From Hyalella azteca (lineage: Eukaryota > Arthropoda > Malacostraca > Amphipoda > Hyalellidae): a DNA stretch of 64,000 bases. Where the stretch lies: assembly GCF_000764305.2 (NCBI RefSeq), contig NW_025946916.1:86464-150463 (forward strand). Reading direction: 5' to 3'. How positions within the stretch are numbered: the stretch's first letter is position 1; every line of letters starts with the position of its first letter. A model generated the notes under the pieces. The model saw only the letters and a program-made list of their open reading frames with translations, was not told the origin of the DNA and searched no databases. A program made the position numbers and the translations under genes. This document shows positions 1 to 55,500 of the stretch, one piece after another.

Positions 1-534
1 TAAGGTGCGATTAATGTCGTGTGTTGTTTGAATGTAGGTTTGTTTGAATGTAGGTAGCATTACGTAGCATAAATCCACACCCATCTCTGGCATTCGTGAA
101 CATGTGTGGAACCAATTCAATGTAAGAACCTACGATCTTCTCTGGATTAAAATGGTAAGTAAAATATGGGAAAATTAATTACAAACGAGATCTGACCGAT
201 ACCAAGTTAAAAGTTATTTTCAGTGCAACGCGAATTTCGGCAAAGGTTCTTTATTTTTACAACCAGGCATTTAGAAGGAATTTATCTGTTGACAAATTAG
301 AGTTTAATTAAAAAAAATTCAATAAATAAATCACAACTGAAATCCCACTGGCGAACTCGAATGCGGTAAATGAGATGTTTTATCATGGAGAGTTTAGACG
401 TCCTGGAACAAGCAAGGTCTCAGAAGATGTCAAATAAAATATAATAGAAACAATCACTTTGTTATCGCTAAAGCCTATTCTGCAAAAGAAACCTGTATAC
501 TCGATACGGACTTTGACATCAAGCTGAGCGATCG
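1..534. other. AT-rich upstream flank
   Basis: I see no gene here. The last in-frame TGA upstream of the long frame at 610-6084 is at 514-516. The stretch would hold the promoter and 5' untranslated region of that gene if it is expressed; I could not identify a convincing TATA box or initiator. Confidence 0.3.
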
Positions 535-609
535 ATGGCAGGCTCTTTCGTTCCGGGTCCTGATAGCGGCGAGAGCAGCACGCACACGCAGTTCTAAGCA
601 AGAGAAGAA

Positions 610-3600
610 ATGTTGTTTGTTCATTTGCTTCTCGGAGTTTTATTCGAGGAATTTCTGGCAATAGAAGGGGGCTCTGCTATAGCAAACGAATAGCACAATG
701 AGTCGCCTATCACTGATGCAATAGACTGCAAACTAACGTTGAAAGGCGGCAGCTACCGAGGAGAACGACGACATGCCGTTGTGAAAGGCATGCCGACAGC
801 TTGCATTCCATGGACTCGACCTAATTGGGAGTTCATGAGATATTAAAACCAAAACAACACTTTTGTGCTAAAAACGTTGCAGAATTTCAATGGCGTTGTG
901 CTTGAGTGGCTCAAATATGAGATGGACGAAGTCGGGCCGAAATGTCGCAACCCTGGAGCCATTTTCAGCACGCCACACTGCTTGACGATAGTGAATGATG
1001 TTGTAGAGCTTTCTCCTTGCACGGTGCCACTATGTGATGAGTAAATAGATAGCAAAACACACAGTAAGTGCGCAATAAACCTTGCTGGGGATTTGTACAC
1101 CACAAAAGTTTCTCCGTAATTTTCTAAGTATTTTACCCCGGTTCAGAATGAAAATTTTTGCAAGTAATACAGTAGCTCAAATTATTATGGACTGCATTAT
1201 CAAGGATACATCAAGCAAGGCGAAATTGGGGAAATTCCTTGCATTGTGCCAGACTGCGCCTCGGACCCTCGTTCTTTTGTAGTCAGCGGAGGATATTTCG
1301 TAGATTCGTGGTTCATGCTTCCTAATTTCAACTCATTGCTAGAATTAAATGTTAGAGGCTACACATAAAATTATTTTTCTGATTTACTAGTGCAGCTTCG
1401 AGTGACTCCCGACGAAGCTGACTCTGGAATAAATCTAGGGCTGACTGAGAAGCATTTTCATGTTGGTCATAAAGCGTTCTTGGCCGTATTAGATGCTGGT
1501 CACATTCCCGCCCTGACCAATTACATGGCAATGCTGGAAAACGATTCCATGTAAGTCGGAGACGGCATATACAAGACGGCGCATTGGCCATAGATCTTCC
1601 ATAGCGATGCATGGAGCTAGCTCAACCTTATAGTCAAGCACGGCAAAGTCGCGGCCTTCGACAAAAAATCTACGTCAACTAGACCCCACCTTATGTTATC
1701 TGCGGAACTTCTGACAGGTTTTCCGAGATGGATCAGATTATAATCTGATTTTATGACGGAAGTTTCCTTCGGCAACGTAACGAGGTCTGGATGCCCTGTA
1801 CTGTTAACGCTCTCAGAAAGAACTTCCCGGGGTTGGCAAAATGACAGGCGACTGCACGGTTACGGCTAATTGTAAGACCCTGTGAAATTTAATAAAATTA
1901 TTTAATATCCTCCTCTAGAGAAAATATCAGTAGCCTTGCAGGAAATGAAACATAAGACTCAAGGGATATTTTTCAAAGTTAAGGGTAATTTCCCAGATAT
2001 TAAAATGGATTTTTTTGTAAAAGGTTCAGCAGCGGAAGGAGCCTCGATAACTTTTTGTGTTAATCCCACTCGTGAAAATGGCTTGAGTTTCAATTTAGAC
2101 AGTCATCTACGGCTTTGCGTCTTCAAGGGAGAAAATTGCGAAGACTTATGGGAATGGAAAAAGTAAAAGGCCTAAGCAAGAGCATCAATCGATAGGCTCA
2201 AGAGGCCTCTATTGTCGCCAGTCTTTTGGACGAGATTTGTGATCAGACTCACTGATAAGAGCGCCTAAATTCATCGAAGTCTGGGACGCAACACGCACAA
2301 TAGCCGGCTTTCGTTGCTCTTTTCGATACACTTCACTGAATTCAAAGTCTTGCCTTACAGATTTGTTTCGTTTAAAGGGAATTTACATCAATGGACAGTT
2401 GATTGCATTCCTGATCTTATAGATGAGCATTAAAAACCTCCATTCTGTTCTTTGAAGACTCATCCACCTCTCATGGCCGGTATAGGTTATGAAGGAGAAG
2501 TTTTCTACGGCCTAAACCAAAATAACCAATTTGAGATGTGTAGGTCTTGGAGGTACGACTCTGATTAAACTTCGGAGTCCTTGCTCTCTGTTTTCCCTCC
2601 TATTCCAAATCCTGAAAAAGAGAAAATCGGTTAGCATTTCCTTTATGGTGCTGTCCCTCCCCATAACTTTTGCAGGAATTTACGAGGGGCGTACACGATT
2701 GCGCCAACCTGTGTTGGAATAAAGACAGGCTAAAAGCTTAAATGCTAAACTGCCTGCACGACAAGGCAACTACATCGTTACACGCTCCTTGGACTGGAAT
2801 ATCAAGGGAATTTGAGTCTTTCTCAGACTGGCAGAAAGTGCATTGCAGACGGTATGGCTCCGGCCAAATGTCATGCGCGACATGACGTAGCTTTAGGCAT
2901 CGCGTGCGAAGTCAAGGCAATATCTGCACTCACTAACCTCACTGAAACGTTCCTTGAGAGCTGCTCGGTTCCTGTACAAAGTGCCGTCGAGGCGAAAAGG
3001 CCATTCCACGAATTTGATGTCTTTGATGACAGCAAAGAACTGCTCAATATTCTTTATATTCAAGATGGATTTAAATTTGGAATTTTACCAGCTATGTTAG
3101 GGTTTATTAAATATTTATAAATTGTATTTTTGGATGATTAGTATCAAATTCGAGCAATTTTGGAACTGGGAGAAAGAAACTATGAAGCAAAGATATATGT
3201 TGAAAATAAACCGTGGCGGAAGTTACACAGAAATGTGCACAATGAAATGTTTCTGGAAAACAAAATAAAATATTTTGAACTCTTTCTTTCAAGGTAAAAG
3301 TGGCTGGTTTCAATTTTAGACCCAAAATCCTTGACGATTGAAAAAGAAATTATTTCATTCGACACCCGAAATGAACCCGAACTGGAGGACGTATCGTTTG
3401 TTCAATTCCGAACTGTTATTGCAACCGATGTGTATCACGATGCCTTCTACAATGTGTTCTCCAACGAGAAAACAGCATTGTTGAAAATTAAGCCTTGGTT
3501 TAGACTTTACTTTGACATCGAGCGTTGTCTTATACTGAAACTAGATAAAAGAAAACTGTCTCACTAGAGGAAAATTCCTAGACGTGTTGAAAATGAGACG

Positions 3601-6084
3601 GAAATTGCATTCCTCTTGCCTGAATCTAAAACGGAGGGTGACATATATGTGATGTTATATTAAAAGGGATATTAATACAACGAAAATATGGATTTTCATG
3701 CACCATCTCATGCCTTGGTCATTACAAGTAACTAAGGGAAAATTCATTGGCATTAAATTGAGAGATAATTACCCGCGACGTATTACAAGAAGCATGTTAC
3801 AGGAGAAAGCATTATGAGCGAATACGAATTAAGCAATTTATACGAAAATTAAGTGTGGCAGCAAATATCAGACTCTAATTAAGGAACAGTGTTGTTTTAA
3901 GCCAAAGGACGGCGATCCATTGGATCGATATCGTTTTCGCTTGTCCGCTAGACAGCCTCGATTTGGCTTGGTTTAGCCATCAATCTTTGTCCGGAAATAT
4001 TGAATAAAAGTTAAACTTCGGAAACTGCCTCAGCTCATTCGGCACATTTTCCGTGGTCCGTAAAATCATCGCTACCGTAGAATGTCAAAATTAGGAACGT
4101 GGGAGAATTGGCATCTGTCCAAAATCTAATGCAAAAAGGAAAGTCCGGATTATTAACGCAGACAGATTTTGATTCGTTCCATTAGGAGCTACGCTTAGAA
4201 GATTAAAGTTTTCGTTAGTCAAACTCAGAAGCTTTCAGCCAATCAGGAAAATATTACTTCCAAGGCAGAGCTTAAAAGCTAGGGGGGAAAGGAAGTCATG
4301 AGATCTCATTCTTCATAGAGAAACATGATGGTTCATTAGTTAAAGTTCCAGTTGGCCACGTTTTTGATACAGTAAACACGGCTCGAAAAAGATCAAATGA
4401 TGCTGAATTGGGTGAAGAAACTATTAACGAATATCAAAAGCTGAAGCTTCTCCTCGGTGCTTACTTTACAACTTTAGAGTCCCTGCCAGACGAATGCAAG
4501 CCTCCTCTGTGGCTAAATTAATGGACATTGATGCTTAAGAGTCGTCCTGAACCCCAAGACGACTTAATTCCAGTTACAGTAGTACATGGAAATTCATATT
4601 CTCCTAATAGCTTTCTAATGAATAATTACTGGCGACTGAGTTCTTCTACGAGGCGGTCTTAAGTCATCGTTCGCTAAGACAGCTGCTAGGTTCCTTCTCT
4701 CGAGTAAAACCGTGTTCCTGGCAGAGGGAAATGGACGAATTAAAAAAGTTGGTGTTCCAAGGACTGCGACACGGGTTATGGATACGACGAATGGACCTGC
4801 GTTAATGTCACCATCAAAGACGACCTTTGCCAGCTTAATGGAAGTCACTAGCATCGAAGAATTTAACGCGAAGAACACGTCTGTAATGTGTTCCAGTGCG
4901 GGCATCTGCCAGAAGACCTCGAAAATGAACTGAAGTTTGTCGTCGCAAAACACATGCAAATGAAGGTGGTGCGTGAAGGAGAAAAAACTACTGCATCGTG
5001 CCTTTCATCGTTGCTCATAAGTATTCATTAAGACCAAAGATTCAGCGGAAAAATAAAAATATTCTGGTACAAAGGAGACAAACCGCATAGAGGCAATATT
5101 TCCAGCACCGGGGAACTAATATTTGGAAAAACTTCTGCTCAAGATTCCGGTCTGTATCAGTGTTTGCTCTCCATCAGTCCCACTCAAGCAGGCTTCGTCG
5201 ACCCTCAGAAACGGCAAATCTACTTAGCAAGTTTACAAAGTTTGGTAGTTCGAAGTTAACGAGCAACCCATCGTGTATTGTTGGGCGAGGACTTCAGCTT
5301 TGAACTTGGAGTGTCGGCATACTGTTAACCTTCTGGCTACGACTGTATTACAGTGCTCGTGAAGAGAACTGAATACGAGTGGGCAACCATAAGAAAGAGT
5401 GAACATTATGTCCGTAACATTACTCTTGTGAACGTTGAAGAAAATATGCTGGGTGAGTACCTGGTTTGCGTTTCACGGTACGACAAACTGAATGAATCAG
5501 AGAAGAATCTGTCATTAACGAAAAATTTCAATGAGCTTCTATGCGTACAATATTATAACCTACAGGAATCATAGTGGCTCACACATTTGAACAAAATAAT
5601 CGTATACGTCAATGGCCACGAATTGTCTATTTACGCAGCCACTCATCCGTACCTGACGGCCCTTCTGGTTCTGCTGACAGTCATATTATGGATCGCCATG
5701 ATTTTCTGCTCCGATATAATGGAGCGCTTCGATAAATCAGCAGGAGACAATGAAGCGAAACGACGGGCGAGGACCCAGCTTCTGAACATGAGGACGGGCT
5801 ACCCTCTTACTCCATACTAGGAACAATTGATGCGTGACTAAGAATTGGAAGCTAATAAGAAAGAAAAGTAAGCTAAATTCTGGGCGTTTTTGCGGCTTTT
5901 CACTCGCTTCTGGGAGAGAGATGCGTCCGAGGAAATTGATGCGGCGTAGCAAGGGCTTGATGCTCTTCAGGAGTTAAATTTGTCATTTAGTGACGTTGAA
6001 TATAAGAAAATTTTTGGCGACGTCACGAGTTCAAACTTTTCTTCTGGAAATTTTAGAAATTTGCCTTTAAATTACGGTTCATGA
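610..6084 (+). CDS. Kringle/Ig-type single-pass membrane protein in a frame containing TAA and TAG
   Basis: Read from ATG 610 (or ATG 535), this frame has no TGA until 6082-6084, yet contains 56 TAA/TAG codons (about 41 TAA, 15 TAG) and no frameshift. With those read as amino acids the product is about 1,824 residues. Residues 1-17 (MLFVHLLLGVLFEEFLA) resemble a signal peptide. Cysteines at residues 40, 65, 112, 124, 137 and 142, with YRG after C1 and CRNP at C3, follow kringle spacing. A second set lies at 613, 644, 688, 701, 712 and 716 (CRSW, NFCRNL). Around 5041-5165 an Ig-like module shows FWYKGD...DSGLYQC; a weaker second one lies at 5281-5475. A hydrophobic helix at 5656-5715 precedes a charged tail. 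Kringle plus Ig suggests an animal receptor or adhesion protein (inference). A pseudogene would be expected to show TGA and frameshifts; other explanations are sense reassignment, read-through or editing. The translated fate is unknown. Confidence 0.6.
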
Positions 6085-8431
6085 GTTAAAGAGTAGCAGT
6101 GCGCTGTCAGCATGCATGTTAGTAAATTTCATGTTGGCCAAAAAAGATTTTTCGTCTGGTATTTTGTAAAATGCTTTTTTTTGCAGGTTGAGAATCAAGA
6201 TAGATTATTTATTTTTTATTGTAAATGATTAATATTGTGCTTGAACATAACATTTTAACATCGTATTTCGTGAGAAATCATTTATATACTCGAAAATAAG
6301 TTTAATTTTTAAATAAATGCAATTGCGACTGTTTATTTGAGTTTTTGGCATAAACGTACTTCGTAGGTATAATTCGTACTAATTTTTCTGTCTCTACATA
6401 AAATTTCCTCATATTTTAAAAATCTACATGAAAATATATTTGTAGTCTAATGCATCCGCTCTAAATTTAGATTACTAATAAATGCTTCACTTATACTCAG
6501 GAACCTGCTGGCTATAATGTTGATTTCCCGACGGTCATTGAGCGAGGGGCTCAATTTTTCTCGCTCTTCCCTGAATGATCGACTAATATTTTTCAGTGTT
6601 CCTCTTAAATGATGGATTTTTCATGCTACTCTGAAATGATGGCTCGAAATTTTCCGGCACCGCTCCTTAATTTCCGGGAAACACGGACCAATTTATCACT
6701 CTTTTTGGAACGCTACGTTCCGCTCAAAGGCAAGAGCTCCTTTGTTCTCAACGAGCTTTTGCTCAAGGGCTCTAAAGGATCGTCCACTCGGGGTAATTCC
6801 AGGTGAACATTGCTCGACAATCTTGGACACGGATGCATATTTCAGGGTAATACTTGAATAAAAGTAACGCAACTTTGTGGAATGAATTAAATTTCAGGGT
6901 AATTATTGAGTAATACTAACTCAACATTATAGAGTAAATTGAAATGGAGACACGGGGAGATTTGTCATGCGAAAAATTGACCATTTAGAACGACAACAGC
7001 AGCCATATGACAGCTGATTAGTGAGGCAGCTGCGCAATTATTCAGTTGCTTTGTCTGTAATTTGGCAGTTATAACTTAGCTGATTGTGCCCTATTGATAG
7101 CAAACAGAGTTTCAAACGTCGGGAGTCAACTTGTAAATGTAGTTGCCGCATTTATGGTAAACATTGCTGAGTTAAAAGATATTTGCTAACATTGTTTAGC
7201 GATTTATGAATCAATTATATTTATATTTATTTAGAACGTCTGATTTTGAAACACATTCTTTGAGTATCCAGTCATTTACTGTAGTGAATGATATGATATG
7301 AATGATAGAAATGATACATTCAATGTAGTACCACATGGATTTTCATATTATATATAGAGTATTACGGCGTTAATTACTCGGGAACGATAATAGAGTACCA
7401 CGTAGATATTATTACTGAAAAGATACTATTTACGAAAGTGATACCGTATTAAAGGTTATAAGGTTTCATGAATGACGTATATTCGTGACTTTAGATTTAG
7501 TAAACACAGTATGTGAAGTGTCTTCCAGGAAGGCATAGATTTTAAACAAAATGGTATATAGTTTGAAAAATCATGAAAAGCTATTGAGATCTTAATTGTC
7601 GTATATTGAATGATTACTCGGTAATTTTTTCAAAAAGGGGGAAGGTTTTAGAAGTAAAATTCACTTGAACAGATCCGTTTTGGTGTGTTATGCAAAATTT
7701 ATTTTAAAATGGATCTCAAGAATCTATCGCTCATTTCAGCTAATTCTGGAAATAAGGAATTCTATAACGAACAATTTTTTTTGGAAGAGCATCAAGCAGC
7801 TGGCTACCCAGTGAAAATTTACAGACGCGGCAGCTTTTGATTTGGATTACCAGAAGCTGGGGCGACTCTAAATTTTGTTAAATCACGGGAAATAAATTTT
7901 TGTTTAGTGTACCGCCGCAGATTCTCAGTGTGATACTTTGCCTGCCCGAGTCCCAAAAAGATATCCAGGAAGTCATCATTTAAGCCTAACGCCAAAATAT
8001 TTAAGGTATAGCAAGAGCGCAGCAGAAATACGTAGCAAGGAAAGCGTTGAGCTGAGCAAACTGCTGCACATCGAGGGGGCGTTCGAGCAAACAAAGGCCA
8101 GCATAGCTAATGAGCATGACTTGCTCTGCAACTCCTTTGTTCTTATCAGGCTTCGTGCTGAGATTAACGCACTTCCTATGTAAACTTTCTAACTCGCTCT
8201 CGTGATAAGCTTTCTGGCAGCCGCTAAGAATTTAATCAGATGCAATGGAATTAAATTCTTAAATTCTAACCGTCTATTTACTATTTAGCAGTCCAATTAT
8301 GTAATGTTATTAGCCACGAAAAAATTGTCCGGGATTTTCTACGTTTAAGCCTAAAACCTGAGATAAAAGTGTTGTAAAATTAATGTGTTCTTTGCAACTT
8401 TGTACTGATTTCACACACTTTCCGCTATTCT
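6085..8431. other. AT-rich intergenic stretch
   Basis: Mostly A/T-rich, with no recognisable gene. A short protein-like frame from ATG 7709 (through FYNEQFFLEEHQAAGYPVKI) is broken by TGA and TAG codons within 45 to 75 codons. The short frame at 6609-6806 resembles nothing I know. Confidence 0.4.
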
Positions 8432-22738: not shown

Positions 22739-24503
22739 GATCACAAACGAGTGCATAGACATTATTTGTATTACAGAAATACTTCTAAAAATCACGAGGG
22801 GAAATTGTACCTGTTTAATTTCAGTTGCAATGGCTTAAATGAAGAGCAGTGCAGTAGAGGTGTAGCTTTGTGGGTTAGAACTTTTCATGGGGCCCAGCAA
22901 ATTAAGTTATCAGCAGAGCATCAATCAGCTAGAGAATCAGTGTGGTGCGAACTTACTCTAAAAGGGGCAGGATAGCCTCCTCACAGGGGTCGTATATCTA
23001 TAGATCACTAAACAGTTCCTCTGATAATCATTAAGTGTTGAACAGCCTTTTATTTAGCAGGCCGCATACCGAGCATGACTTTCAGCAGGTCGCATACGTT
23101 GATCGTTTGTGACTTCATTATCCAGAAATAGACTGGGCAGATGGATCCTCTCCAAGAGATGGGAATCACCCAGCATCCCTATTCTTGGAGTCTTTGTGAG
23201 AAACATTTTTATCCCAGAACATCGACGAGTTAACCTATTTTAGGGTTTAACACACGCCAAATATTCGAGATCTTGTGTTTACTAGTGAATGATCAATATT
23301 TTATGAGCTTCGCCACTAGGTATTGCCAAAAAATCAAAAAAGAACCCGAATGCCTTCCTTTTGTACGTTAGTTCGAAATGTAAGGCAAACGACGGTATTT
23401 CTGATTTTAAAGTAGATCAACGAAAGATTTCCTCTGACGAGGGCATGGCTAACGTTCTTAATCAGTTCTTTATCAGTGTGTTCAAAGATGACGACTTGAA
23501 CAGCATTCCAGCTGTTGAGGAGCGCCCAGTAGGCTCGAAGTTAACAGGTTTTGAAATATACGTAGAAGAAGATTTCAAGCGCCTGGTCGCTCAGAATCCC
23601 AACAAGTCATGTGGACCAGATGGCTTCCATCCTAGATTGCTAAAAGAATTGGCAACTGTCCTGGCCGGTCCTTTGACAGTGATCTCTTAAAAAAATTGAG
23701 AGAAGGGACTTTGCCGGCCGATCGGAAAGAAGCTAAAGTAACACCATTGTTTAAAAAGGTGACCAGAGTAGCCCGGTAACTATTGGCCTGTCAATCTGAC
23801 AAGTGTTTTTTGCAAGATAATGGAATCTGTTTAAAGGATTATCGATCACTTGACTGTTATCTATCTACTCTCAGACTGTCAACATGGCTTTATAGCCGGT
23901 AGATCCTGCAACACCAACCTCTTGTCTGGACTCGCCTGCTTCTTCAACGACTGGACTCGCCTGCTGGACGAAAGGGAGCCAGTGGACGCAGTGTACCTCG
24001 ATTTTGCCATAGCATTTGATAGTGTTCCGGCTGTTACGTAAAGTGAAATCTTTGGAAATAGAGTAAAATGTGCTCCCATGGATAAGAGATTTTCAAGAGG
24101 GTAGACGACAACGTGTCAGTATTGACGGAACCGTGTCAAACTGGGCATCAGTACGCAGTGGCGTGACACAAGGAAGCGTTCTTGGGCCTATTTTGTTCCT
24201 TGCTTTTATAAACGATCTACCAGAAGTAAGTGTCAATCGTGTACTCGATGTATGCTGATAACACAAAAGTTTATAATACAGTGAAGGACGCGTAAAATAA
24301 GTGCAATTACAAGATGACCTTGATAGTTTAGTTTACTGGGCTGATATGTGGGAGCTGCGTTTCAATGCTGACAAGTGTTAAGTACTTCACCTCGAGAAGA
24401 ACACTGAACAGCAAAATTACAGTATGAGAAGACATGATTGAAACATGAAAGCAATAACTGAATGAAGTCTAACGTAGAAAAAGATTTAGGAGTTTCTGTC
24501 GAC
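22739..24503 (+). pseudogene. Dead CR1/Jockey-like LINE, endonuclease and reverse transcriptase
   Basis: This is a degraded second ORF of a non-LTR retrotransposon. Endonuclease fragments read ECIDIICITEILLK, then VWCELTLKG, YPEIDWADGS and FLSQNIDELTYF across several frame changes. Reverse-transcriptase blocks follow: KSCGPDGFHPRLLKEL (23590), QHGFIAGRSCNTNLLSG (23880), DAVYLDFAIAFDSVP (23980) and [20 protein letters not shown] (24150). The expected YADD box near 24245 reads YADN, so a catalytic aspartate is lost. It then reads VEKDLGVSVDG and stops where the 24504 terminal repeat begins. The product would reverse-transcribe LINE RNA at a nicked target. Stop codons and frameshifts show it is inactive. 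The family assignment rests on these motifs only. Confidence 0.85.
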
Positions 24504-27823: not shown

Positions 27824-28250
27824 GGAGCACAGCCGTGGGTAACAAAATCGACTCGTAAACAGGCCCTGGGTCTAACGCCAACCATCAGCATGCAATATCT
27901 ACACATAGCCTCAGACCAATGAGCTGTGGGTAACTCCGGCTAACAGTAAATCCGCTTTGCACAACACAGCCACTGCTCCACAGCGTAACTGGCCGGAGCG
28001 CAACAGGCCCTACCGCAACAGGCGGCGCAGGTTAGGTTAGGTTACGTTAGGAGTAGCAGTTGCGGTAGGGCCTGTTGCGCCCCGGCGAGTTGTGCTCCGG
28101 CCTGTATGCGCTCCGGCCTGTGACTGAACGGCGCTGTTGTGGTGGGCGCTTTGTGTCATAAGCCGTGAAGATGCCCGGCTGCGTTACGCTCGGGAAGGTA
28201 TATGAATCGCAGTGTGGACTTGGGCTATGCTGACCTCTAGCCATCCACCC
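27824..28250 (-). repeat. Right terminal inverted repeat
   Basis: Inverted counterpart of 24504-24929, differing by scattered substitutions and small indels. Confidence 0.8.
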
Positions 28251-30501: not shown

Positions 30502-33500
30502 GTGCGTTTGTGTCGAACTTGTGCGTTGTGCAGAATTTACCTGTGAAATTGGAATTTTCCCATCATCAATGCCAATTTTAATGAAGAATAAATTATATTT
30601 TTGCATACAATGAAGTTCTTTAATGATAATTCATTTATCGCACAGGCGCTAAAATTTTTCAACATTCTTAATGATTGGACATTACCATCCAGACAAGAGC
30701 AAATTTAATTCGCTTTTTGGATATTATATCTAATCTTTGTGCCGCTGCAGCATATGTGTATCAATAAAAGGAAAAAAATCATTATAGTCTTCACGATTAC
30801 CTTTTCAGTTGTGACTGCTTTGAGTCTATTCGCTAATGTACCGTACTGCTAAGTCGCTTCAAATGTTTGGATAAATTTTGAAATTAACCTATTAATTAAT
30901 TCAGCTTTTCTATTTATTTCAGAAAACTGACGCAAACCTGAGCCAAATACAAGGATTTATTCAGTATCCAGAAAGGTATTCCCAAATTCCCGGACGGTTG
31001 AAAACGTGGCGTAACAAGCGTCGCACAAGCCTCCCACGCTCTCATGCTCCCGACGAAGATGACAGTCAACATAGAACGAACGCATCTACAACTACAACCC
31101 ATCAAGTTCAGACAACACGTGAAGATCTTGTTGGGTCAAGATCTAAAACAACCTTAGCCAATAAGCATTCAGTCGCTAGTTATGATTCGCGTTCAGACGA
31201 ATTGGAAAATCTAACTTCACTTGATCCACCATGTGAAAATGAAGGTGTGGCTGATGGCGAAACCTCCATCGCATGTTCAAGAAACTGTGAAATACTTCGG
31301 GGGAATTTAGATGCGCACAACAGAGGTGGGGTGAGTGACACTTGGTCAATTCAATGATATTCATTTGGGTTCATTTCAAATTTATAACCTTAAATAAAAG
31401 AAAATGGGAAACTTATATAAATACAAATTTTAAAATAAATTCATTGTATGATAATGGTCATCCAGATTTTCGATGTGGTTATAAGATGCATCAAACCTAG
31501 GTCACAAAATCTATCATTTATCAAAATTTTCAATCGAAATATATATGTACATGTTCCAAAATTTACGCATCAAATGTCTAGCACGCTGCTATCTGTAGAA
31601 AAAGCATTATTGATAAATTTGAAATTCATGCGGAATTAAAAAAAAATTCAACAAATACTACAGATGCCTGACCGAAGCATACCAGAGCAAGAGAGTTCGG
31701 GAGGAGCCAAAACTGACGAGGCGAAGCTGACGGAGATCCTGACGCTGCTGCAGCACCTCACACGCACCATGGACGGATACGAGCGCCACCCCTTGCTGGT
31801 TAGAGGGACACCCTGTCTCATGTGGCGCTATTCCTTCATTATCTGATAACTGCTCAGGTTAACCTCCTCTGGACAACGTGGAAGTTTACGAGGGTGCTTT
31901 TGCTTCCGCGCCCCTTTCTTAATATTTCAATATAGGACCTGAGGTTGGTTCGATAAGTAGTAGTGATACGTGGATTATTGAGGTATAGCGTAACAGTTTA
32001 TAGAATATTATTTGGAGATTATATACGGCTTACATTTTAAGGCAATAAAGGCTTATATGTCGAGGCTCAAACAATACCGTCACCGGCTCACGACTGAAAT
32101 AGGGATGAGTCTTGAGTATATACGCCTACTGTACTCTACTCCGACCCTATATAGTTGACTTTACTATCCTTTTGACGTGGACATGAGTAATGGCCGTATA
32201 CATGACTGTTCAAGGCCCAAGACTACATAATTATATTATTAACTATATAATTTCGCTATTTGACGTTCCCAAAAGCGTGAGTCGCAACCGGGTTAAACAA
32301 GGAATGGATAAACCACAGATATGTTTTAAATGAACATATCGCAATAAAGAAGATGAGGAAATTACTCGAATGCGGTAGTTTATGGAACCTGTCTGAGTCG
32401 TGTATAAATTAACAATGTTCTCATCTGACAGTTGGTACATCCACCTGAACTATTTTGTGCTGTCCGTTCAGTTCCTGACAACTGCCCAGGTTTATCTCGT
32501 ATGTGTATTTGGGTGCCACACCTGGTATATATGGCGCCGACTATTGACCGGGAGCTACAAGGCTAATGATATTATATCTCACATGCCTTGTTGAGCATCG
32601 GTAGTTGACTTATGCGGCGCTGTCCTATTTACCTGACAACTTTGTCTGTACATTCACTGATTCCATTTAATTCGTGTGCCTATAATAAATTATTAGAAGT
32701 GAAGAGCATTACCCTTATAACTGAAATATATTGTTTTAACAAAAATGAGCTAAGAAGATAATATTCGTTTCGTGTCTTGATCCCATGCAGTAAAGAATGA
32801 TGAATAAAATGCAAACATAAAATTCTTCAATGTCGTTAAACAACTTTTTGAAGGTCTTTTTTAATGACCTTTTTGGTGTCGTTATACTTCATCAAAGATG
32901 TCGCCTGACAAATGTTGACGCTGTGGTAATCACCATTTAGCGTTTAGCTTACCTGTATGGCAACAGGATAAGTCATTGTGGTAACCCGTTCCTAATTGCA
33001 GGCTTCGCAAGACCCACAGCTGCAGCGGCCTGGCGAGCAGAGCGCGGTCATGTCACACGACGCTGCGGTCGGGAATGCAAGACTTCAAAAAAGGGAATTT
33101 TTGCTGACTCATCACTCCGAGAATCGTGCTCTGTATGATGATAAATCCGGAGAGTGTGATGATATTGTAAATCCTGCGCTATCGAGATGGGAACAACCTG
33201 GATTGTTGAGCAATTGCAAATTTGAAGAGTTGTTCCCAAAATATCCAACTCTTGATGAAGCCAGAACCTCTCCTTCGAGTGAATTGATGCCTGCAACAGA
33301 ATATAACTGCAAACTAAACTCAATTATGAGTTCCACCAAAGGTCTTCCAACCGAGGATACTCAAAAATTTATGGCTCGTCGCAAGGGAAATGCTATGAGT
33401 GGAACTACAATAAATACAATAAGCTCAAACTTGGCATCAAAAAATTCGACTACGGAGTTGAATAAAAATTATCAAGGAGAGCGATTAATCGAAAAACCCT

Positions 33501-36500
33501 TGAATGGAAGTACAAAAGAACTTTCCCAAAAGTACAGTGACGATTGGGACCTGATCCAATGCAAGGATAAAGATGATAATTTTGCCAACAAATATTCAAA
33601 AAAACAAACTGAGGATCCTTCGAATACAACCGAACTGCCTCATGACTTCGTACCACAAACTCCTACGGTGAACCTGCACGTACATGAACCCATTGCACCG
33701 ATGAACATGGAGCTCGCGAGGAGCGTCATGCTTTGTTCAAATGAGTCCAGCAGCAATTTACCTGATCCTGGTAACCCGCTGATGCTGCAATCTTCGTCTC
33801 TGCGACGTGCAATCGATAATGTGGTTAGCAGGAAAACGGAACTCGATAAACGACTCGAGCAGCTGACGATTAAACGAGAGAATGAAGCTTGGATGGAAAT
33901 GTACATGAGCGATGACGAGCCTGTTGTTCCTGCGAGGACATGGGAGACTGAGAATTGCAAGATAGCTCGTACCGTACCGAGATATGTTCATATTACGCGG
34001 CGTCAAATGAACGACAAACAACGGCAACACAGTGGATCTATGGGTCCATGGCGCAGCAGACAGTACAACGTGCCAGTTGTAAAACGACCAAAGAAAAAAA
34101 TCCTAGCGACTGGAATCAGGAAAAATAAAGTCACAAAGTCGACCAGGTTTGATGAGCTACAATCGACACCTGCCGAGTCGTCCCGAAAAAGTAGCATTGA
34201 CAGCATCTTGCAGTCTCTTCAGAGCGACGAAAGTAGCATCCCAGGACTGGGTGACATGGGTCTCAGCAAGGAGATTAATTCTTTAAGCAACACCATACAG
34301 CAACTGGTCAAAGAAAACACGGGGCTCAGAACGAAACTAGGAACTGGATCTCAAAAAGCCGGCCCGATAAGAGAATTCAACCACGGCAGTGACTGCCGAA
34401 GTTACGAAGGCGTTGGTAGAGGAAGGGATTTTCAGAGTTATGAAGGAAGCGATTTGGAATGTCGTGGAGATCATATTCGCGCTTGTGATGGTTGCTTATG
34501 TTCAAAATCTGAAACTTCTGACCGACGGCATGTAGGCCCAATGCAGACACCTAGAATATGCAGCCGAACGACGAAGAGCGATGATGAAGATAGTGCAATT
34601 GCCAAGAGAAAGGTGACGGTGGGAACATCAACAGTTTGTCATCAGGATTTGATTGATCAAACGGTCCAAACACAAGAGCCGGAAGTTAGTAATGACAACA
34701 GCAATCGTACAATGCAGCCGATGATTTTAAACTTTTGTGAACTGCTGATTAAAGAGAACAGTCGACTTCATCAACTGTGTGGTAACGAAAACAATTTGGT
34801 GGAATCCTGGAAGAGTTTTATAACTAACTCCGTTGTGAGAGAAACATCCGAAGTAAACTTGAAACAGAGCCAAAGGTTGGATAAATCAGATTCTGAGAAT
34901 TTCGAAGAGACAATAAATAACAGGAATGATCATCAAAATGGCCACATGAAGTTTCCAGGGAGAATAGAAAACACTAGTGAGGAAGCCAAGGAAAATTCAA
35001 CGAACTCAGTCAAGCCCTATAGAAAGATCCATGCTTCTGAAGAAGCACATTATTCTGGATCCATATTTTTAAATGCTGATAATTCATCACAAATTTTAAA
35101 AGAAGAAAACTCGGATCAAGAGAAAGCCAGAAAAAGTCTCATGAAAATTGTAGAGGATTGGATTGTCCCTTCTCTCGGAACGTTAGTCACAACAAATATT
35201 GACGCCCGTGTCACAACTGAACCGAAATCTGAGAACGCCTCTGTCGGGCGTCCACAGGACACCAACTTGGAAATCAATCCTCCACATTTCTGTAAGGAAA
35301 TTTCGACTCAGCTAAATCGATCTCATTCAACATCAAATCTCGACGAGCCTCAGCATAATGTTTCAAGCATCAGTGTATATCCCTGCCCAGTTTCAACTGA
35401 AGTTCAAAATCAAGAACCATCAATGGAACTGGGAACGAAAACTCAACTCGGAGTGGGAATAATACAAGATGAACATTGTTGCCATTCTCGGAATTCAGGA
35501 GTCAATCAAGAAGAAACTGTATCAATTGAAGCTCATCCTCAGCCCGTAGTATCGTTAGGAGAAAAATTTACGTCGAAACTGCAACCAAAAATCACATGTT
35601 TATCTTCCACTCCTGACTCGAGGGCTTCAGATCAAGTTTCTTCCTCAGTTTCGATCAATTTCTCAGAGGTCGAAAGCGACGATTCGTCTCAAGAGAACGG
35701 TCAAAGAAGCGCAGTTTCCTCCAAATACCAAAGTTCTGAACGAAAATACTCGAGTAGTGGCAGGCAAAAACGAGACACTACGTCAGCCGCAAAAACTTCA
35801 AATGTTATGGTAGACGAAGAATGTTTAGGGGGCGAACGACGAGGGACTCCAAGGGAGTCCCACGGAGTAACACTCAGCAAGCGCAGCATAAAACGGCAAC
35901 ACACATCAACGTCAAATTTACAATACTTGCATTCAGAAATTCACAGTAAACCTGATTCAGACTCGAACCTTAATGATAGGAAAAAATATCGAAACCCTTT
36001 CCATAAAACACGATCATCGCAGCGACATCATGAAGTTTCCGAAACGTCATCTTTTTCTGATAAAACTCTACAGGAGATGGTGATTAATGACGATGGCAGC
36101 TTCGATTCAGACAATCGTCGTTCCATGATGGTGAGAAGTGGTGCTCGTGAATATCGCTTAGAACTCATTCTGCTTCGAACTCTTTTGAAGGCCGAGCAGC
36201 GTAGAATAAAAAATAAGGAACTCGAACGGAAACTGAAAGAAAATGAAAAAGAAATAGCTCGATTGAATATTGGTTCTATGTGTGTAAGTGACTCGAAAGC
36301 CACTAGTGATCTTGATGCAACAGAAGAGAGTATTTCTACTGAAGATAGAAAATTATTTGGTCCTTGTAGTTCCGAACCTAATGTAGACTCTGTAAAAGGA
36401 GAATTCAGGGCTGAGAGCAATAAATTCGGAGGTAAAACAAACAAAGTAACCATCCTACGCCAATGGGAAGAGTACGCTCGAGCGTGCAGTCAGGACGAGG

Positions 36501-39500
36501 GCACTTCTGGTAGAAAAGAAATTGCACAGGCTGCGCAAGGTCTCCGCGAGAAAGAAAGTAATACTCCTAGATCAAGTATTGTCAACTCAAACGATAGTTT
36601 ACAAGCGAAAACTCAAAATTTTGACCAGTATTTTAGCATTTTGGATTCAAATATGAAAGAAAAGAACGCAAACTTTGTCTCGGCATCAAAAAACAGACGC
36701 TTAAGCGGATCGCAAGAGGATAACCACGAATCAACGTCGAAAGGTCTTAACTATTCTTTTGCAAATAATATTACAGTATCTGAAAATAAATCAACTTGTT
36801 CATCAACAATTCCTAGAGAAATGTCATCTAATACCCTGATTGCAGTTTCTTCAAAGGCCGATCAAGTCGAAGAAAGTATGAATGATCATGTAGAGTCCAA
36901 TATCAACGAATCGAAACCTTCGTTACGCGACAACAGCGAGGCACTTGAATGTGAAACTAACGAGACTTTAAATAATGTAAACGTAACCCAGAGTGGAGAG
37001 CACAGCAGCACAGAACAACACGAGAATGGAACTCTCAGTGGCGAGCACAACAGCACAGCACAGCATGTGAATGCAACTCTCAGTGGTGAGCACAGCAGCA
37101 CAGCACAGCATGTGAATGGGACTCTCAGTGGTGAGCACAGCAGCACAGCAAAGCACATGAATGATTTAAACAACAAGACGCCATCCAGATCAGCGATCCC
37201 AAAGCAACATTTAAGCTTCATATTCAGCCACCATAAACAAGTGGAAGCGCAAACTGCGGAGGTCAAAGAGTGGACGAACAAACTCAATGAGTGGAAGGTG
37301 AGAGGCTTACGTTGATCGTCTTTTAAACACTCAATCAGAAGAAATTGTGGGTCATATTGTCCAAATAATAACAAATTTTTGTACCCACAACACGAGCAGA
37401 GAGCGGACGCAGCACTAATAATTCCTTTGCCGGGTCAAACTGGGTCAATATGACCCACAATTGAGCAAAGAGTATACATCGCGATTTCTACCGAGTCTCA
37501 CTCATTTCTCTGAGTGATGATAGATATACATTTCTGTATCTTATAATTTGAATGAATGAAAATGTGTATTTACTAAGTAACAAATTTCGACATTGGACGC
37601 AGGCACAATATTCACGCTAACGAACCCTGATGCAAACAGAAATTGTGTGTCCCAACTACAATTAGAACTGTACGAAACAACTGTCACTGTAACGTAAAGC
37701 ATGCAATATATCTCATAATATTACAAATGAAGCTTATAACTACGACATTAATAATATTTTCATGATGTATGTTCGTTAATTACACGGGAAGAATGTACTG
37801 CAGCAACTCGAGAGCGACCTGCCGCCCAGCGGCGGCCAGCGGGCGGCGGTCCAGCAGCCCAGTGCCACGGCCGCATACCGACGACTTCTGGTAACTACGT
37901 GGCCGACGAGATTATTTTTATAAAGATGATAATTTCATTCTGAAGCATGGAAATTACTATCATCTTTTGTTAATTCGAGAGCGAAATAATGATTTATCAC
38001 TGAAGGAACAGTAGAAAATATATAAGATGATTAGCACTTGGTATAAACATTTTCTTCGTCAGGTGGAATACGAAAAAGTCACGGAGAAGATGCTGTCAGG
38101 CCTCCTGGACGCCGCGTCCTCGAATGCTGTAAAGCAAGACCAAGACATAGATTTTGTTGTGAGTTAAATTCATGTTTCTTTTGCCAAGATTTCTATTGCC
38201 AAGATTCAGAATGAGCACTAATCCATGTTTGATGTCCTGTTACTTTAAAACAAATTGATTGCCTAAATATGATTCATTACAATGACATTTAGTTTTTGGT
38301 GATATTTAATTGTTTTTTTTTTATAAAACAGGGAATGTTGCTGGAGCTTGGGGAGAGCGTGAGTGTCTGCGTTGGGGTTGTACAAGCTCTGCTTTTCCCC
38401 ACGACGGCCCCCCTGCACCCACTGCAACCCCCATCCCTCCACACCCATCCCTACGGCTGGCTGGCTCACTACGTCAAAAGGCTCGCGTTAGTATCTAACT
38501 TTTTCAATTCGTTTAAAAATTAATATGAATTTAAAACTAAAAATTATTTAATTGAAAAAATTGCGATTGTAATCAGTGCTAATATTGTACCTCCTTAATA
38601 ATCGTTTAAATTTCAGCAATAAAAATATAGATATGTATGTAAATATAAAATATATAAATACAAATAAATATAAAATATAAATAATATGGACATATATTAT
38701 GTATATATATCAAGATATATATAATATATCTTGTGCAGATGGCTGCAGGACGTGAGCCGCTCTCACCGCCGCGAGGAGGCTGCTTCCCATGAGTTTGTTT
38801 CTCAGGAAAACTCAACGTCAACCATTACTCCACCAGTCGAGCTCAGGAGGAACAAGGCAATGCCACTAAAGCAACTAAATTATAAATTATTAAGAGCGTT
38901 CAGCAGGGAACAACATTATGACTCATCAGGCACCAGCGCTCTAGAACCTTCTTCCATTTCTACCGGAAAAACACCCACTAGGAAATGTTCCAGCAGACGA
39001 CGGAAGATCAAACTTGAAAAGACCAGCGATGCATATGGAGACATGAATGTAAGCAAACACAAGACATCACAACAAAACGTAAATAATTTTAGTAATTCTC
39101 AGACTGTTAGCTGCACAAAACTCGACTCCCGAAACTTCGAAAGACCAAGCGGCTACAGCACCGCAGAGCTCAGCAGCGTCGAAAACAAAAAACGAACTCA
39201 CAGAAAATTTTTCGAGGAAACCAGCCCACGGGGTCATAGAAACTCTACAAGTGAAAATAGTGAAGAAAAGAGCCTGCGTGGATCTGAAGATGTTACCAAT
39301 CTCAGCAACAGATTAAAGCGTGGTGAAAAAGGTGCAAGAAACAATACAAAATTTAACAAGCACAGAAGCAGGATGCCCACAGATTCAGGCAACGAAGAGA
39401 CGTACGAACGAAGCGTCGAAAAAATCCCAATCTTCGCAAGTGGCAATGCTGCGACACGGAAGTCAAAGGGGACTATTGTCCGAAGGAAAGAAAGAGAAAA

Positions 39501-41412
39501 TTGCCCTCGAAATAATATAAGTGATGTAACAAAGCATTCAATCTGTTTCAAAGAGCATCCGCCGCCTCAAAATATCCTGGCTGACTTTCCGAAGGCCGAT
39601 GCAGGAAAAACTGCAGATGACGTCGAAGACCAACGGATAAGCGGAGGAGAATCACGAAAGAAAATAATCAGGAGGAAAAGTAGTAAAATAAGTATAAAGT
39701 CTTGCCATACTTTTCATCCAAAATTAAGTACATCTCGTTCTGATGATGACAGCAGCAGCCTCAATGATGATGGCAGTCGTCTCAAAGATGATATCAGCAG
39801 CAGCCTCAATGATGATGGCAGTCGTCTCAAAGATGATATCAGCAGCAGCCTCAATGATGATGGCAGTCGTCTCAAAGATGATGGCAGCAGCAGCCTAAAT
39901 GATGATGATGGCAGTCGTCTCAAAGATGATGGCAGCAGCAGCCTCAATGATGATGGCAGTTGTCTCAATGATGATGGCAGCTGTCGCAATGAACGCAACG
40001 ACATCTCCGTAAATAAGACGATTAGAGTAACCCATGTCGTCAGTTCACAGGGGACCGGGAGCAGCGATCAAAGCAGCGAATGTAGCAACAATAAGTCTAA
40101 AATTAAAAGGAAAACCAAACAATCAGCCGGAAGTGAAGGGAAGTCCGTCAATCACAACCGAATTGATTGCAACAATCCTACTAGCTTTGAGGTTTCAGTT
40201 GATAGCGACCCCGGCACTATCGCCGAGGCAGAAAACAGAGAGGGAATCAAAAGTCACTGTTCCAGGGGCAGCGCTAAGAACACCGAGCCCATCATAAACG
40301 ACAATGAGCTTAATCACATTGACCTGAGAAGAAGCTATCTTGATCAGATCAATTATAATTCGCAGAACTGCTCTCGTGGAAGTATTGGCGAAGGCTCCGC
40401 TAGCTGTGAAAATGACGGTATTAGTGAAGGTTCCACTAGTTGTGATAGTTACAGCGATGGAAGTAAAAGTAATTCGGCCGACAGCGACTCGAATAGCAGC
40501 TTGTATGTTCCTAAACTAGCTTGGGATGAGCAACACGGCTACAAATCTGAACAAATAACGCCACCCATTGAGCATACAGGGTACGCATCAACTGCAAGTG
40601 CACGCAAAAATGATGCAAATGCTCGGACCATTGAAATTGTTCTCAGCAGCACCGACGAGGAAGGACGGAATATTTCGCAAAACCTGTCGGCGAAACAAAT
40701 AAACGTCAGCCACTCAATTCCAAATGAGGAAGGCAAAATGAATAGAAAGAACTCGGCGGAGATTGTGGGGAACGAATCACATGAAGTTTGTGCTAATGTC
40801 CCGAGTGAGTTATTCGTAAGAAAGAGACCCCGGGATGTAGAATTTGTCACGAGCACCCAACAATCTGCAGGTCCGCAAGAGACGGCGATCGTTCTCAGTA
40901 GCCCGGCCTCAGAAGAATCACGTTTCTCACTCGCTGAGAAAGCAAAACATAAAGATGAAGAGTCACTAAATAAGGAAAAGAAAAATATCATAAATAAAAA
41001 CCAACGATGTTTCCGTGGGCAAAAACAGAAACTTGGAGCGCTCATTGAATCAAACAATCCAGGTGATGAGGAACACGCTGGTCGTGTCGAGGAAAACATG
41101 GCCGCGGTCTCAGTTGAACGGCTGGCAATGAAAGACATTTCAAAGCGGCGTGATACAATGCCAACAATGCCAAGTGCTAATGATGCTATTACTCTGAATA
41201 ATTTTCCCGGTGGTTCGGAAGGAAAGTATTCGATGACGATTGACAATTTTCAAGTAGAAGTGACAAAGAATAAAGTCGAGAACGCGAAAAGTTTCGTTTC
41301 AGCTCCATCACTGACTCGGCTAACTGGCAAACTGGAAAATTTCCCACGTGAAAGAAACCATGAAGACAGCAGCAGTGACTTCAGCATGGCAGATGACATT
41401 CTCCCTGTTTAG
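30280..41412 (+). CDS. Large disordered coiled-coil protein gene, eight exons (span)
   Basis: The exon chain is 30280-30501, 30923-31330, 31664-31798, 33002-37297, 37804-37890, 38063-38158, 38332-38486 and 38739-41412. Every border is AG/GT, the first six exons are whole codons, and the phase-2 joint at 38486/38739 reads HYVKRLAWLQDVSR without interruption. The product is about 2,690 residues, rich in Ser, Asn, Glu and Lys, with no signal peptide or membrane helix. Short heptad-like segments occur at about 33810-33900 (AIDNVVSRKTELDKRLEQL), 34265-34335, 34720-34780 and 36150-36260. I do not recognise the family. The composition resembles centrosomal, ciliary or other scaffold proteins, but that is a guess. 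More 5' exons may exist. Confidence 0.75.
30923..31330 (+). CDS. Large gene, exon 2
   Basis: TTTATTTCAG acceptor and GTGAGT donor; 136 codons. It reads KTDANLSQIQGFIQYPERYS at the start and has a basic patch (KTWRNKRRTSLPR) followed by Ser/Thr-rich sequence. Confidence 0.7.
31664..31798 (+). CDS. Large gene, exon 3
   Basis: ACTACAG acceptor and GTTAGA donor; 45 codons, MPDRSIPEQESSGGAKTDEA then a predicted helix LTEILTLLQHLTRTMDGYE. Confidence 0.65.
31799..33001. other. Intron 3 of the large gene
   Basis: 1.2 kb between exons 3 and 4, no gene or repeat recognised. Confidence 0.4.
33002..37297 (+). CDS. Large gene, giant exon 4
   Basis: AATTGCAG acceptor and AAG/GTGAGA donor; 4,296 bp and exactly 1,432 codons with no stop. 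Low-complexity and highly charged with several short helices. Near its end four 15-residue repeats (LSGEHSSTAQHVNGT type, 36985-37160) form an in-frame minisatellite. Absence of any stop over 4.3 kb is the strongest evidence that the gene is real. Confidence 0.9.
36985..37160 (+). repeat. In-frame coding minisatellite, 45 bp
   Basis: Four units of LSGEHSSTAQHVNGT type at the end of the giant exon. Confidence 0.85.
37804..37890 (+). CDS. Large gene, exon 5
   Basis: TACTGCAG acceptor and CTG/GTAACT donor; 29 codons, QLESDLPPSGGQRAAVQQP onward. It is GC-rich relative to its flanks. Confidence 0.65.
38063..38158 (+). CDS. Large gene, exon 6
   Basis: TCTTCGTCAG acceptor and GTT/GTGAGT donor; 32 codons reading VEYEKVTEKMLSGLLDAASS onward. 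Confidence 0.7.
38332..38486 (+). CDS. Large gene, exon 7
   Basis: Poly-T tract plus AAAACAG acceptor; GTTAGT donor in phase 2. It reads GMLLELGESVSVCVGVVQAL then a Pro/His-rich stretch and HPYGWLAHYVKRL. An earlier GTGAGT at 38359 could be an alternative donor. Confidence 0.6.
38739..41412 (+). CDS. Large gene, final coding exon
   Basis: TCTTGTGCAG acceptor; 891 codons ending in TAG. It is basic and serine-rich. A 45-bp in-frame minisatellite at 39745-39985 encodes SSSLNDDGSRLKDDI repeats. The C-terminus is acidic (DSSSDFSMADDILPV). Confidence 0.85.
39745..39985 (+). repeat. In-frame coding minisatellite, 45 bp
   Basis: About five to six units of SSSLNDDGSRLKDDI-type repeats inside the last exon. 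Length changes here would keep frame. Confidence 0.85.
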
Positions 41413-52571: not shown

Positions 52572-55500
52572 CTGCTTCCCCCTCTCTCCCCAGCCGGGGT
52601 AACATGTCCTCATGAGTACCTATCGAACTCAATGCCAGAGTCCGGGGAAGACAAGAAGTGCAGGTGTCGACATCTGCAGTCCGCGATACAAGAGCATTTC
52701 TGCGGCGACAAGTTCAGCTGAACTTGAAAATCTTTAAGTTGACCCATAAAGTTGAAGTTTGGGTCGATGTTTGCTTTCTTAACTCTGACGTAGTCATAGG
52801 CCGCCTCTAGGCTGAGCTTCTTCTTGAACATGAGGTAGGCCACGGTGATGGTCACGCTCCGTGAGATGCCAGCTAGACAGTGCACCAGCACCCCCACGCC
52901 GCTCTCCCGCGCCTCGTCTGTAACAAACAACACGGTCAGGAGCTGCACTATAGCGACATCAGCTGCACTATTTTAAATGCAACTGCATTGTTATTAAATA
53001 CAGCTGCACTATCACAACATACAGCTGCACCATCATAACATACAGCTGCACCATCACAACATCAGCTGCACTATCACAACATACAACTGCACTATAACAT
53101 CAGCTGCACTATCACAACATACAGCTGCACTATCACAACATACAGCTGCACTCTCACAACATACAGCTGCACTATAACAACATCAGCTGCACTATCACAA
53201 CATACAACTGCACTATCACAACATATACAGCTGCACTATCACAACATACAGCTGCACTATCACAACATACAGCTGCACTCTCACAACATACAGCTGCACT
53301 ATCACAACATACAACTGCACTATCACAACATACAACTGCAATATCACAACATACAGCTGCACTATCACAACATACAGCTGCACTCTCACAACATACAACT
53401 GCACTATCACAACAATAAGCGGCCTAACTGCCGAGGCATTATCTGAGCCTACAAATTTATTCATGGCGAGAGAATAAGAAGGTTTGGAGGAAATGGAGGA
53501 ATGTTTGGATAGAAATATTCAAGCAATGAAGACAAGCGATGGTTGTGAAAAACAGCAGTGGTTGCAGTGCAGAGCGCAGTGGTTGCAGTGCAGAGCGCAG
53601 TGGTTGCAGTGCAGAGCGCAGTGGTTGCAGTGCAGAGCTCTGTGGTTGCAGCAGTGCAGAGCGCAGTGGTTGCAGTGCAGAGCGCAGTGGTTGCAGTGCA
53701 GAGCGCAGTGGTTGCAGTGCAGAGCGCAGTGGTTGCAGTGCAGAGTGCAGTGGTTGCAGTGCAGAGCGCAGTGGTTGAAGTGCAGAGTGCAGTGATGCAC
53801 AGCACTTGATATCAGCAGCACGCAGCAATAAGTTTTCTTCTCATCGCAAATGCGTCAGGCGCTGACGCCAGTAAATCAAAGCTCTGTAAACCATCCCAGA
53901 TGCTGCGATAGTAGAATTTGTAGTTTCTATTCTTTTATTAGCAGAAATTCTCTAAGTAATTTGAATACCAATGAGTTACCTCGTATCCAAGAGCCATATC
54001 AGTTCAGAGTATCCTGCCAGATCGACGCTTGTTATCGCCTTGCGCTTCCTCTCTTTTGACGCAAACAAATGCAGCGCGCATGCGTAATGTCCACACAACG
54101 TTGCAAGAAAAAAGAGAACAAGTGAAGACGTTCGATAAAAACATTCCAATTCACATGCATGGTGAACATTGGCAACTCTTAGTGAAGATCTTGTACCATT
54201 AAAAAAGGGATTTGCATTAGTTTTATATGGTACAAAAGTTGTTGACATGTGAATGAATGGAAGAAACGTTAGTAAATGAGACAGAGAAATAGACTCGAGA
54301 TTCGTCAGGAAAGTACGAGGAAAGATGTTGGCCTCGCGCTAATAAGTAAACAGAACGAAGAGATGCTGTTTTTCGACAATATTTTTGTTAAAATATTCAT
54401 GAATTTAAACATTAACTAACAATAGCTGTTTAGAAATTGAAATTCAAACTTTAGACATTTTTGAAAGCAAAAAGATGGCAAGCAATGGCGGTGCTTGGAG
54501 CTTGACAGAGACTCTAGTTGCCAGCGGTCGCAACCGAGGGACTTTCTTGCGTGCATTTAGTGAGCCTACCCTTAGTAGCAGGTTAGTGAGCCTACCCTTA
54601 GTAGCAGGTTAGTGAGCCTACCCTTAGTAGCAGGTTAGTGAGCCTACCCTTAGTAGCAGGTTAGCAAAATAACCATTTACACGAGGGACGGGTTTTGCCA
54701 CGTTATGCGAAGGCATAATAGCATATCTTCGAGCAGTCAAGGCAGGCAATAACGCATATCTTCGGGCAGTCAAGGCAGGCAATAACGCATATCGTCGAGC
54801 GGCCACTCCAGAGGTCAGTGAAATGCTTATCATTTAAAACTATGAGATCGGCACATGTTCTTGCTGATAAAATCAACCAATTAACTAGCATTCATCCTAT
54901 TTTTGTATTAATATAGAGCAGTAACCAATTAACTCGTACTCCTATTTTTGTATGATCACATGCGAGTATTGTTTACATTTCAATGCGCCCCGTATTCATG
55001 AATTGTTGAAGGCGATATAAAAGCCACGAGTTGAAAATATCCTTCATCGTGTGAAGTTATGATTCACCTCAAGCAGGATGAAATTCATTGCATATAAACT
55101 AAAATTCAACAATGTATTGATAGCGTAATTGATAATTATTATTTTCAATCTTATCAATATACCGAAAAATGGGGTTACTTTGACCACTTTTTGTTTTTTT
55201 AACAAAAACCCCTACAAAACTCAAAAACGATTTGACAAATTTTGTCAATGGCCATCAAAGGCCTAATACTGAGGCTACGTAACACAATAGAAAGATTTAA
55301 AAAGTTTGCATATCTAATAGGTTAAAAAATTAATAATGTGACCCACGAAAAAGAGCTATTATTTAAAGCCTGTCGGCTTTAATTCAACAGACCCCATCCA
55401 ATTTTTTTTATTTTTTGGTAAAATAACTCCAGGTTTTGATGCATTGTAGTAGAACTCTTCTAGTTACATATGCAAAAGACAAATTTTAGAAAAATGTCAT

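Follow-up and report, generated by a model that had tools for sequence, protein, structure and literature searches.

The window analysed here comprises 64,000 nucleotides of contig NW_025946916.1, read on the forward strand. Near its start it carries a long open reading frame (ORF), ORF1, which contains many TAA and TAG codons (together TAR, or UAR in RNA) and is closed by a TGA. Codon counts for ORF1 are taken from the ATG at 610 unless position 517 is stated. The following features were recorded in and around this frame.

517..609, + strand: TGA-free in-frame extension upstream of ORF1, holding an ATG at 535 and a TAA at 595
610..6084, + strand: ORF1, an intact frame of 1,824 codons, kept without any intron
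727..1035, + strand: region resembling a kringle and containing six cysteines (codons 71-173, counted from 517); Pfam Kringle on the whole frame, expectation value (E) 0.0099
2611..2886, + strand: end of one kringle-like region and start of the next; prothrombin E 0.018 (with 2269-3117), Pfam Kringle E 0.12
4963..5175, + strand: putative immunoglobulin (Ig) domain; Pfam Ig_3 E 7.4e-5 and Ig_2 E 7.7e-5 on 4867-5571, both below the family cut-offs
5653..5709, + strand: predicted transmembrane helix, where hydropathy over 19 residues peaks at 2.8; a polar tail of 124 codons comes after it
6082..6084, + strand: terminal TGA; the next in-frame TGA is at 6226
6312..6317, + strand: AATAAA, a possible poly(A) signal, weak because AATAAA/ATTAAA occurs about 2.9 times per kb in local intergenic DNA

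A six-frame scan of the window showed that the longest TGA-free run of all is 517-6081, with 1,855 codons. The next runs, of 1,468 and 1,151 codons, lie around two further long frames, ORF2 and ORF3, and are followed by one of 474 codons. Between 517 and 6084, the frame holds 42 TAA and 15 TAG ahead of the closing TGA; counted from the ATG at 610, its 1,824 codons include 41 TAA, 15 TAG and no TGA. These last figures are identical to those of the initial annotation, which had given them for the range 535..6084. They fit a start at 610, whereas 57 TAR codons are counted from the ATG at 535, the TAA at 595 lying between the two. ATG 610 is the likelier start because its eukaryotic start context is better (by eye) and residues 1-19 are hydrophobic (mean hydropathy 1.77); as a putative signal peptide this segment is poor, being broken by two acidic residues. 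A start at 535, or an exon further upstream, is possible.

Over ORF1, TGA occurs 38 and 65 times in forward frames 1 and 2 and not once in frame 0. With 51.6 TGA codons expected (scaled from the 38 + 67 found in these two frames over 517-6084), the Poisson probability of observing none is about 3.8e-23, and it is 1.7e-17 when the window-wide TGA rate is used. This agrees with the initial annotation, which had held that the absence of TGA could not be due to chance. In contrast, TAA and TAG are present at background level, with 41 + 15 in frame 0 against 29 + 32 and 42 + 15 in the other forward frames. Since these two codons are equally common across the frames, TGA alone is avoided in ORF1. 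This codon pattern, with UAR at background level and TGA absent and then terminal, shows that ORF1 evolved under a decoding that stops at UGA alone and reads UAA and UAG as sense, as had been proposed on first inspection of the sequence. Neither chance nor a pseudogene nor readthrough at a few stops accounts for it.

ORF1 is protein-coding. A frame statistic computed on sense codons, with stops left out, reaches 279 for ORF1, compared with 87.9 ± 27.7, and at most 164, in DNA away from the long ORFs (66 overlapping windows); the other two long ORFs reach 409 and 731, so that the signal of ORF1 is weaker and modest. The chi2 value for base composition by codon position is 71, against 2.2, 3.9 and 6.4 in three non-coding stretches. 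Among the three forward frames, frame 0 scores highest in 16 of 18 windows when these span 100 codons, in 22 of 30 at 60 codons and in 31 of 45 at 40 codons; in a six-frame comparison, made with a different background, it is the best frame in just 23 of 46 windows of 40 codons. Windows with at least two TAR codons have lower coding scores than the rest (1.93 vs 2.87 for 40 codons, 3.49 vs 3.97 for 60 and 5.27 vs 9.41 for 100), a deficit that is not significant (Spearman p 0.12, 0.31 and 0.71 respectively). The drop in coding signal after the terminal TGA is not distinct, 11 of 85 ORF1 windows being equally low. We consider ORF1 coding because the frame specificity of its sense codons exceeds that of intergenic DNA and because the translation contains weak Ig and kringle matches together with a membrane anchor.

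As judged from its translation, the ORF1 product is probably a secreted or cell-surface protein, a single-pass membrane protein with a large extracellular part containing Ig and kringle-like domains. The Pfam Kringle match to the whole frame reaches 16.6 bits, under the cut-off of 34.3 bits, and the ROR1 kringle matches the first kringle-like region with E 0.52. No Pfam family was detected in 604-1365 scanned alone under three readings of TAR. At the second place, the prothrombin match has E 0.19 when the whole frame is the query and 0.018 with 2269-3117. Over that segment, Kringle scores 13.1 bits with TAR read as glutamine (Gln), 11.7 as tyrosine (Tyr) and 10.6 as tryptophan (Trp), differences too small to decide the residue. 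Ig_3 reaches 23.6 bits (cut-off 30), and contactin-2 reaches 2.5e-5, a value added up from several short and weak hits to its repeated Ig domains; within the best chain, no single hit passes. Of the animal kringle and Ig signatures initially read in the sequence, the Ig finds support, in matches below the cut-offs, and the kringle is weaker.

The family PF00047 exceeds its cut-off solely with TAR as Trp (24.1 bits against 19.0-20.2 in three other readings); this score was set aside as support for Trp, as the FWYKGDK motif already provides the usual tryptophan (by eye). Apart from PF00047, the Ig scores barely shift when TAR is read as Trp, Tyr or glutamate (Glu), and the Gln reading gives no domain match at the Pfam cut-off. 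No kinase or protease match was found in ORF1. A thrombospondin-like repeat suspected by eye at about 4720-4910 was dropped because Pfam did not support it under any of four readings. For 294 residues modelled without an alignment, structure prediction gave no confident fold (mean predicted local distance difference test score, pLDDT, of 31).

The surroundings of the TAR codons were also analysed. Hydropathy within two residues of in-frame TAR is 0.67 below the ORF1 mean (p 0.0006, 5,000 codon shuffles), compared with +0.14 and +0.11 around TAR in the other two forward frames and with -0.06 to +0.46 in intergenic DNA (21 readings of 7 overlapping stretches). As in-frame TAR alone has a polar context, this constitutes separate evidence that the TAR sites are visible at the level of the protein; the value is not unique, since the Tyr codons of ORF2 give -0.71 (22 sites). 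The neighbours of TAR are more polar than those of all 20 amino acids in ORF1, and this context would fit a residue tolerated chiefly at exposed places. The ratio of TAR to CAR (CAA and CAG, the Gln codons), 57:46, resembles that of the leucine (Leu) codons TTR:CTR, 75:54 (Fisher p 0.69), and fits TAR being Gln. Under this reading, the Gln content of ORF1 would rise from 2.4% to 5.5%, the values for ORF2 and ORF3 being 5.1% and 2.8%; read otherwise, TAR would bring Tyr to 6.8%, Trp to 4.8% or Glu to 9.5% of ORF1. Among eleven residue types, the context departs from that of TAR at the 0.05 level for all but Trp (p 0.40), Tyr (0.16) and histidine (0.08). In 60-codon windows, TAR density was tied to none of the 20 amino acids at p < 0.05. 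Likewise, the codons up to 10 positions from TAR show no excess of CAR (26 vs 28.2 ± 5.1), which is no help to the Gln assignment.

The other genes identified in the window are the following.

32996..37315, + strand: ORF2, 1,439 codons with 74 CAA/CAG and no TAA/TAG, ending in TGA; its open start has an acceptor-like site (by eye)
38725..41412, + strand: ORF3, 895 codons with 25 CAA/CAG and no internal TAA/TAG, ending in TAG
52610..52972, - strand: dual-specificity phosphatase exon (DUSP7/6/9-like; DSPc E 7.2e-23, DUSP7 E 4.1e-25), ending in TGA

Together, ORF2 and ORF3 contain no internal TAR in 2,334 codons, where about 72 would be predicted at the ORF1 rate; the code of NCBI translation table 6 was therefore not found in these other genes of the window, a result that bears on the genome around ORF1 and leaves aside a possible donor. 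The sequence beyond each stop was scored with the codon model of the ORF concerned, the compared windows being left out of training. The 41 codons past the TAG of ORF3 score -0.060, and all 41 left-out ORF3 windows score higher, the lowest of them, at -0.059, by a hair; the same test at the TGA of ORF2 is not decisive (6 of 67 windows as low). The coding signal seems to end at the TAG of ORF3. Because ORF2 and ORF3 lack internal TAR, which is the main ground, and ORF3 seems to end at TAG, the surrounding genome would most likely be that of an animal with the standard code, in line with the earlier statement that the two other genes use standard stops. ORF2, ORF3 and the phosphatase exon all open at acceptor-like sites (by eye), and ORF1 needs no intron. 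The TTAGG units of one repeat and the tail of the phosphatase point, we assume, to an arthropod.

ORF2 and ORF3 (32996-41412) are rich in serine, asparagine and aspartate and have no Pfam or NCBIfam match; a tandem SSSLNDDGSRLKDD-type repeat lies inside ORF3. A homologue search with ORF2, in which 5,025 candidates were scored, gave no match at E <= 0.01. Repeats and possible mobile elements were also noted. At 24504-28250, an inverted-repeat element comprises four pairs of arm pieces, 91-96% complementary and of 58-179 bases each, the inner ones about 2.9 kb apart; one pair holds TTAGG-like units, and the element looks like a foldback transposon. Perfectly complementary 95-base arms, 588 bases apart, at 41540-42317 surround most of a minus-strand ORF (41728-42225), which resembles a Penelope-type endonuclease and has no Pfam match. 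Open fragments at 23307-24689 resemble, in their motifs, a non-long-terminal-repeat reverse transcriptase; no Pfam reverse transcriptase match was obtained for 23307-23687. Many minisatellite arrays occupy 28968-64000, among 20 of 35 repeat families inspected, with units of 15 bases (at 28968), 110 (43083), 22 (58324), 17 (59124) and 51 (59614).

We propose, with a probability of roughly 45%, that ORF1 is a genuine and long-maintained gene which evolved with UGA as its sole stop and with UAA and UAG as sense codons, and that it comes from another eukaryote, having been inserted here or joined to this DNA. In such a source, a release factor ignoring UAR would act together with a transfer RNA (tRNA) reading UAR, as in ciliates, and the simplest reader would be a glutamine tRNA with UUA and CUA anticodons. 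The source would be a UAR-reassigned eukaryote and not the owner of the surrounding DNA, and the gene could have been inserted in the genome or joined during assembly. The foreign gene is placed first because ORF1 is intronless beside spliced genes, because its foreign code appears long settled and because there is a rhizarian precedent in insect data: according to extracts of PMC5304391, transcriptome data published for an insect contained the rhizarian exLh, with 71 transcripts that carry UAG in frame.

Several observations weigh against this proposal. The three-base composition of the 2.3-kb downstream flank (6085-8400) lies at a distance of 0.0100, compared with 0.0095-0.0164 among 8 intergenic windows, and the dinucleotide profile (0.103) is no outlier, lying inside the range of 21 blocks (0.072-0.175). 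The ORF1 domains look animal-type, and no tRNA, hence none reading UAR, was found in the 64-kb window. Protein homologue searches with the full ORF1 frame, translated with table 6, scored the 7,991 candidates sharing most words and returned none at E <= 1. Finally, the contexts of TAR and CAR differ (p 0.013), and this difference counts against Gln because synonymous Gln codons should share a context; as it is based on 56 and 44 sites and several comparisons, we take it as no more than a warning. These data suggest that composition favours Gln at TAR and that sequence context disagrees.

Further searches were also negative. A stop-free piece of ORF1 of 123 residues had 3 candidates, none at E <= 10. 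Viral contigs (three queries) and bacterial and archaeal genomes (one query) contained no ORF1 homologue; in one of the viral-contig searches, four of six peptide patterns held Gln standing for TAR, so that a relative using TAR could escape. NCBIfam, PHROGs and Rfam gave no match. These homologue negatives are weak, as the animal content of the protein database is uncertain and ORF2 is likewise without a homologue. Bases 1-516 also fit intergenic three-base composition (0.030 vs 0.045 ± 0.008). Codon usage in ORF1 correlates at 0.73 with ORF2, 0.15 with ORF3 and 0.59 with intergenic triplets; the off-frame readings of ORF1 correlate with ORF2 at 0.54 and 0.71, and this last value indicates that the correlation mostly reflects composition and says little. 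Significant repeats in common with the remainder of the window begin at 8425, and none lies in 6.1-8.4 kb; a contig join between 6.1 and 8.4 kb is possible. The chimeric contig envisaged in the initial annotation therefore finds no support from composition or flanks and keeps a place where the join could lie.

The animal-type domains and the matching flanks point to a resident gene. In this alternative, ORF1 is a gene of the animal with a decoding of its own: in certain tissues or stages, release activity would be lowered and a tRNA of Gln or Tyr type, near-cognate or dedicated, would read through UAA and UAG, as opposed to UGA, on this mRNA. It accounts for flanks that match the rest of the contig, for the animal-type domains and for TAR sites which are polar, perhaps tolerant, and unlike CAR, as a variable inserted residue would predict. 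However, no animal precedent was found in the open-licence literature searched, and in insects, according to extracts of PMC5100048, readthrough affects between one and three stops and its ancient cases are enriched in TGA, the reverse of ORF1; moreover, undepleted TAR means that near-complete readthrough would be needed at 56 sites. We regard this explanation as unlikely, if the least so among the alternatives. Slightly less likely again is that a resident animal nuclear gene whose protein is under selection has long read UAA and UAG as sense and stopped at UGA alone in an otherwise standard-code genome. A foreign source is placed moderately ahead of a resident gene, and the evidence does not decide between them. 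A constructed, corrupted or simulated frame missing TGA is improbable: the lack of homologues, stop-free pieces included, and a codon bias below that of the two other long ORFs would be consistent with such an artefact, but an accident would hardly produce a membrane anchor, an Ig match, two kringle-like places and a biased TAR context, and missing matches say little when ORF2 has none either.

RNA editing of stops to sense codons, either adenosine-to-inosine (A-to-I, UAR to UGG) or uridine-to-cytidine (U-to-C, UAR to CAR), is a quite improbable account. A-to-I editing disfavours a 5' G, which would make UGA a poor target, and the TAR context is nearest to Trp and Tyr; against this, UAA requires two edits and is nevertheless no rarer than background, and Trp would make up 4.8% of the protein, so that the A-to-I form of the editing option raised at first is disfavoured. 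U-to-C editing should allow UGA too, which is absent from ORF1. A processed pseudogene or other decaying copy is very improbable. The intronless frame, its weak codon bias and domain scores under the Pfam cut-offs in the Gln reading would suit it, yet despite 56 TAR codons there is no TGA and no frame break over 5.5 kb, as the initial annotation had argued, and 52 TGG and CGA codons, each one transition away from TGA, stand intact. Least probable of all is a TGA-only code throughout the genome to which the window belongs. TGA does close both ORF2 and the phosphatase exon, but this reading is opposed by the absence of internal TAR where about 72 were predicted and by ORF3, which ends at TAG and whose 41 following codons score under all 41 left-out windows, the lowest being nearly equal.

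The two leading explanations have different consequences. If ORF1 is resident, two genetic codes operate in one animal nucleus, a situation for which no report was found in the open-licence literature searched, and a cell-type- or message-specific change in termination is implied in an animal. If ORF1 was transferred or joined, it indicates a eukaryote with reassigned UAR whose surface proteins are animal-type, and such organisms would be recognisable by their stop-codon pattern alone.

Among known systems, ROR1, contactin-2 and prothrombin share short sequence stretches and a cysteine pattern with ORF1; the matches are weak, no full-length relative of ORF1 was found and kinase or protease matches are missing. 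With regard to decoding, ORF1 resembles NCBI table 6 (ciliate, dasycladacean and Hexamita code; UAA and UAG as Gln) in that TAR is frequent and undepleted, TGA is absent in frame and terminal, and the TAR:CAR ratio is like that of a synonymous first-base pair. It differs in that a single gene is concerned here, with two neighbouring ORFs free of internal TAR, in its animal-type domains and in a TAR context unlike that of CAR. Tables 29 (Tyr) and 30 (Glu) and the rhizarian exLh, in which UAG encodes Leu (extracts of PMC5304391), likewise read UAR or UAG as sense and retain a different stop; in exLh, as described in the same extracts, UAG alone is reassigned and UAA is still a stop, whereas ORF1 holds both. 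Stop codon readthrough in insects, as presented in the extracts of PMC5100048, also places stops inside a translated animal frame, with one to three stops per gene and TGA enriched in ancient cases; ORF1, in contrast, contains 56 stops and never TGA.

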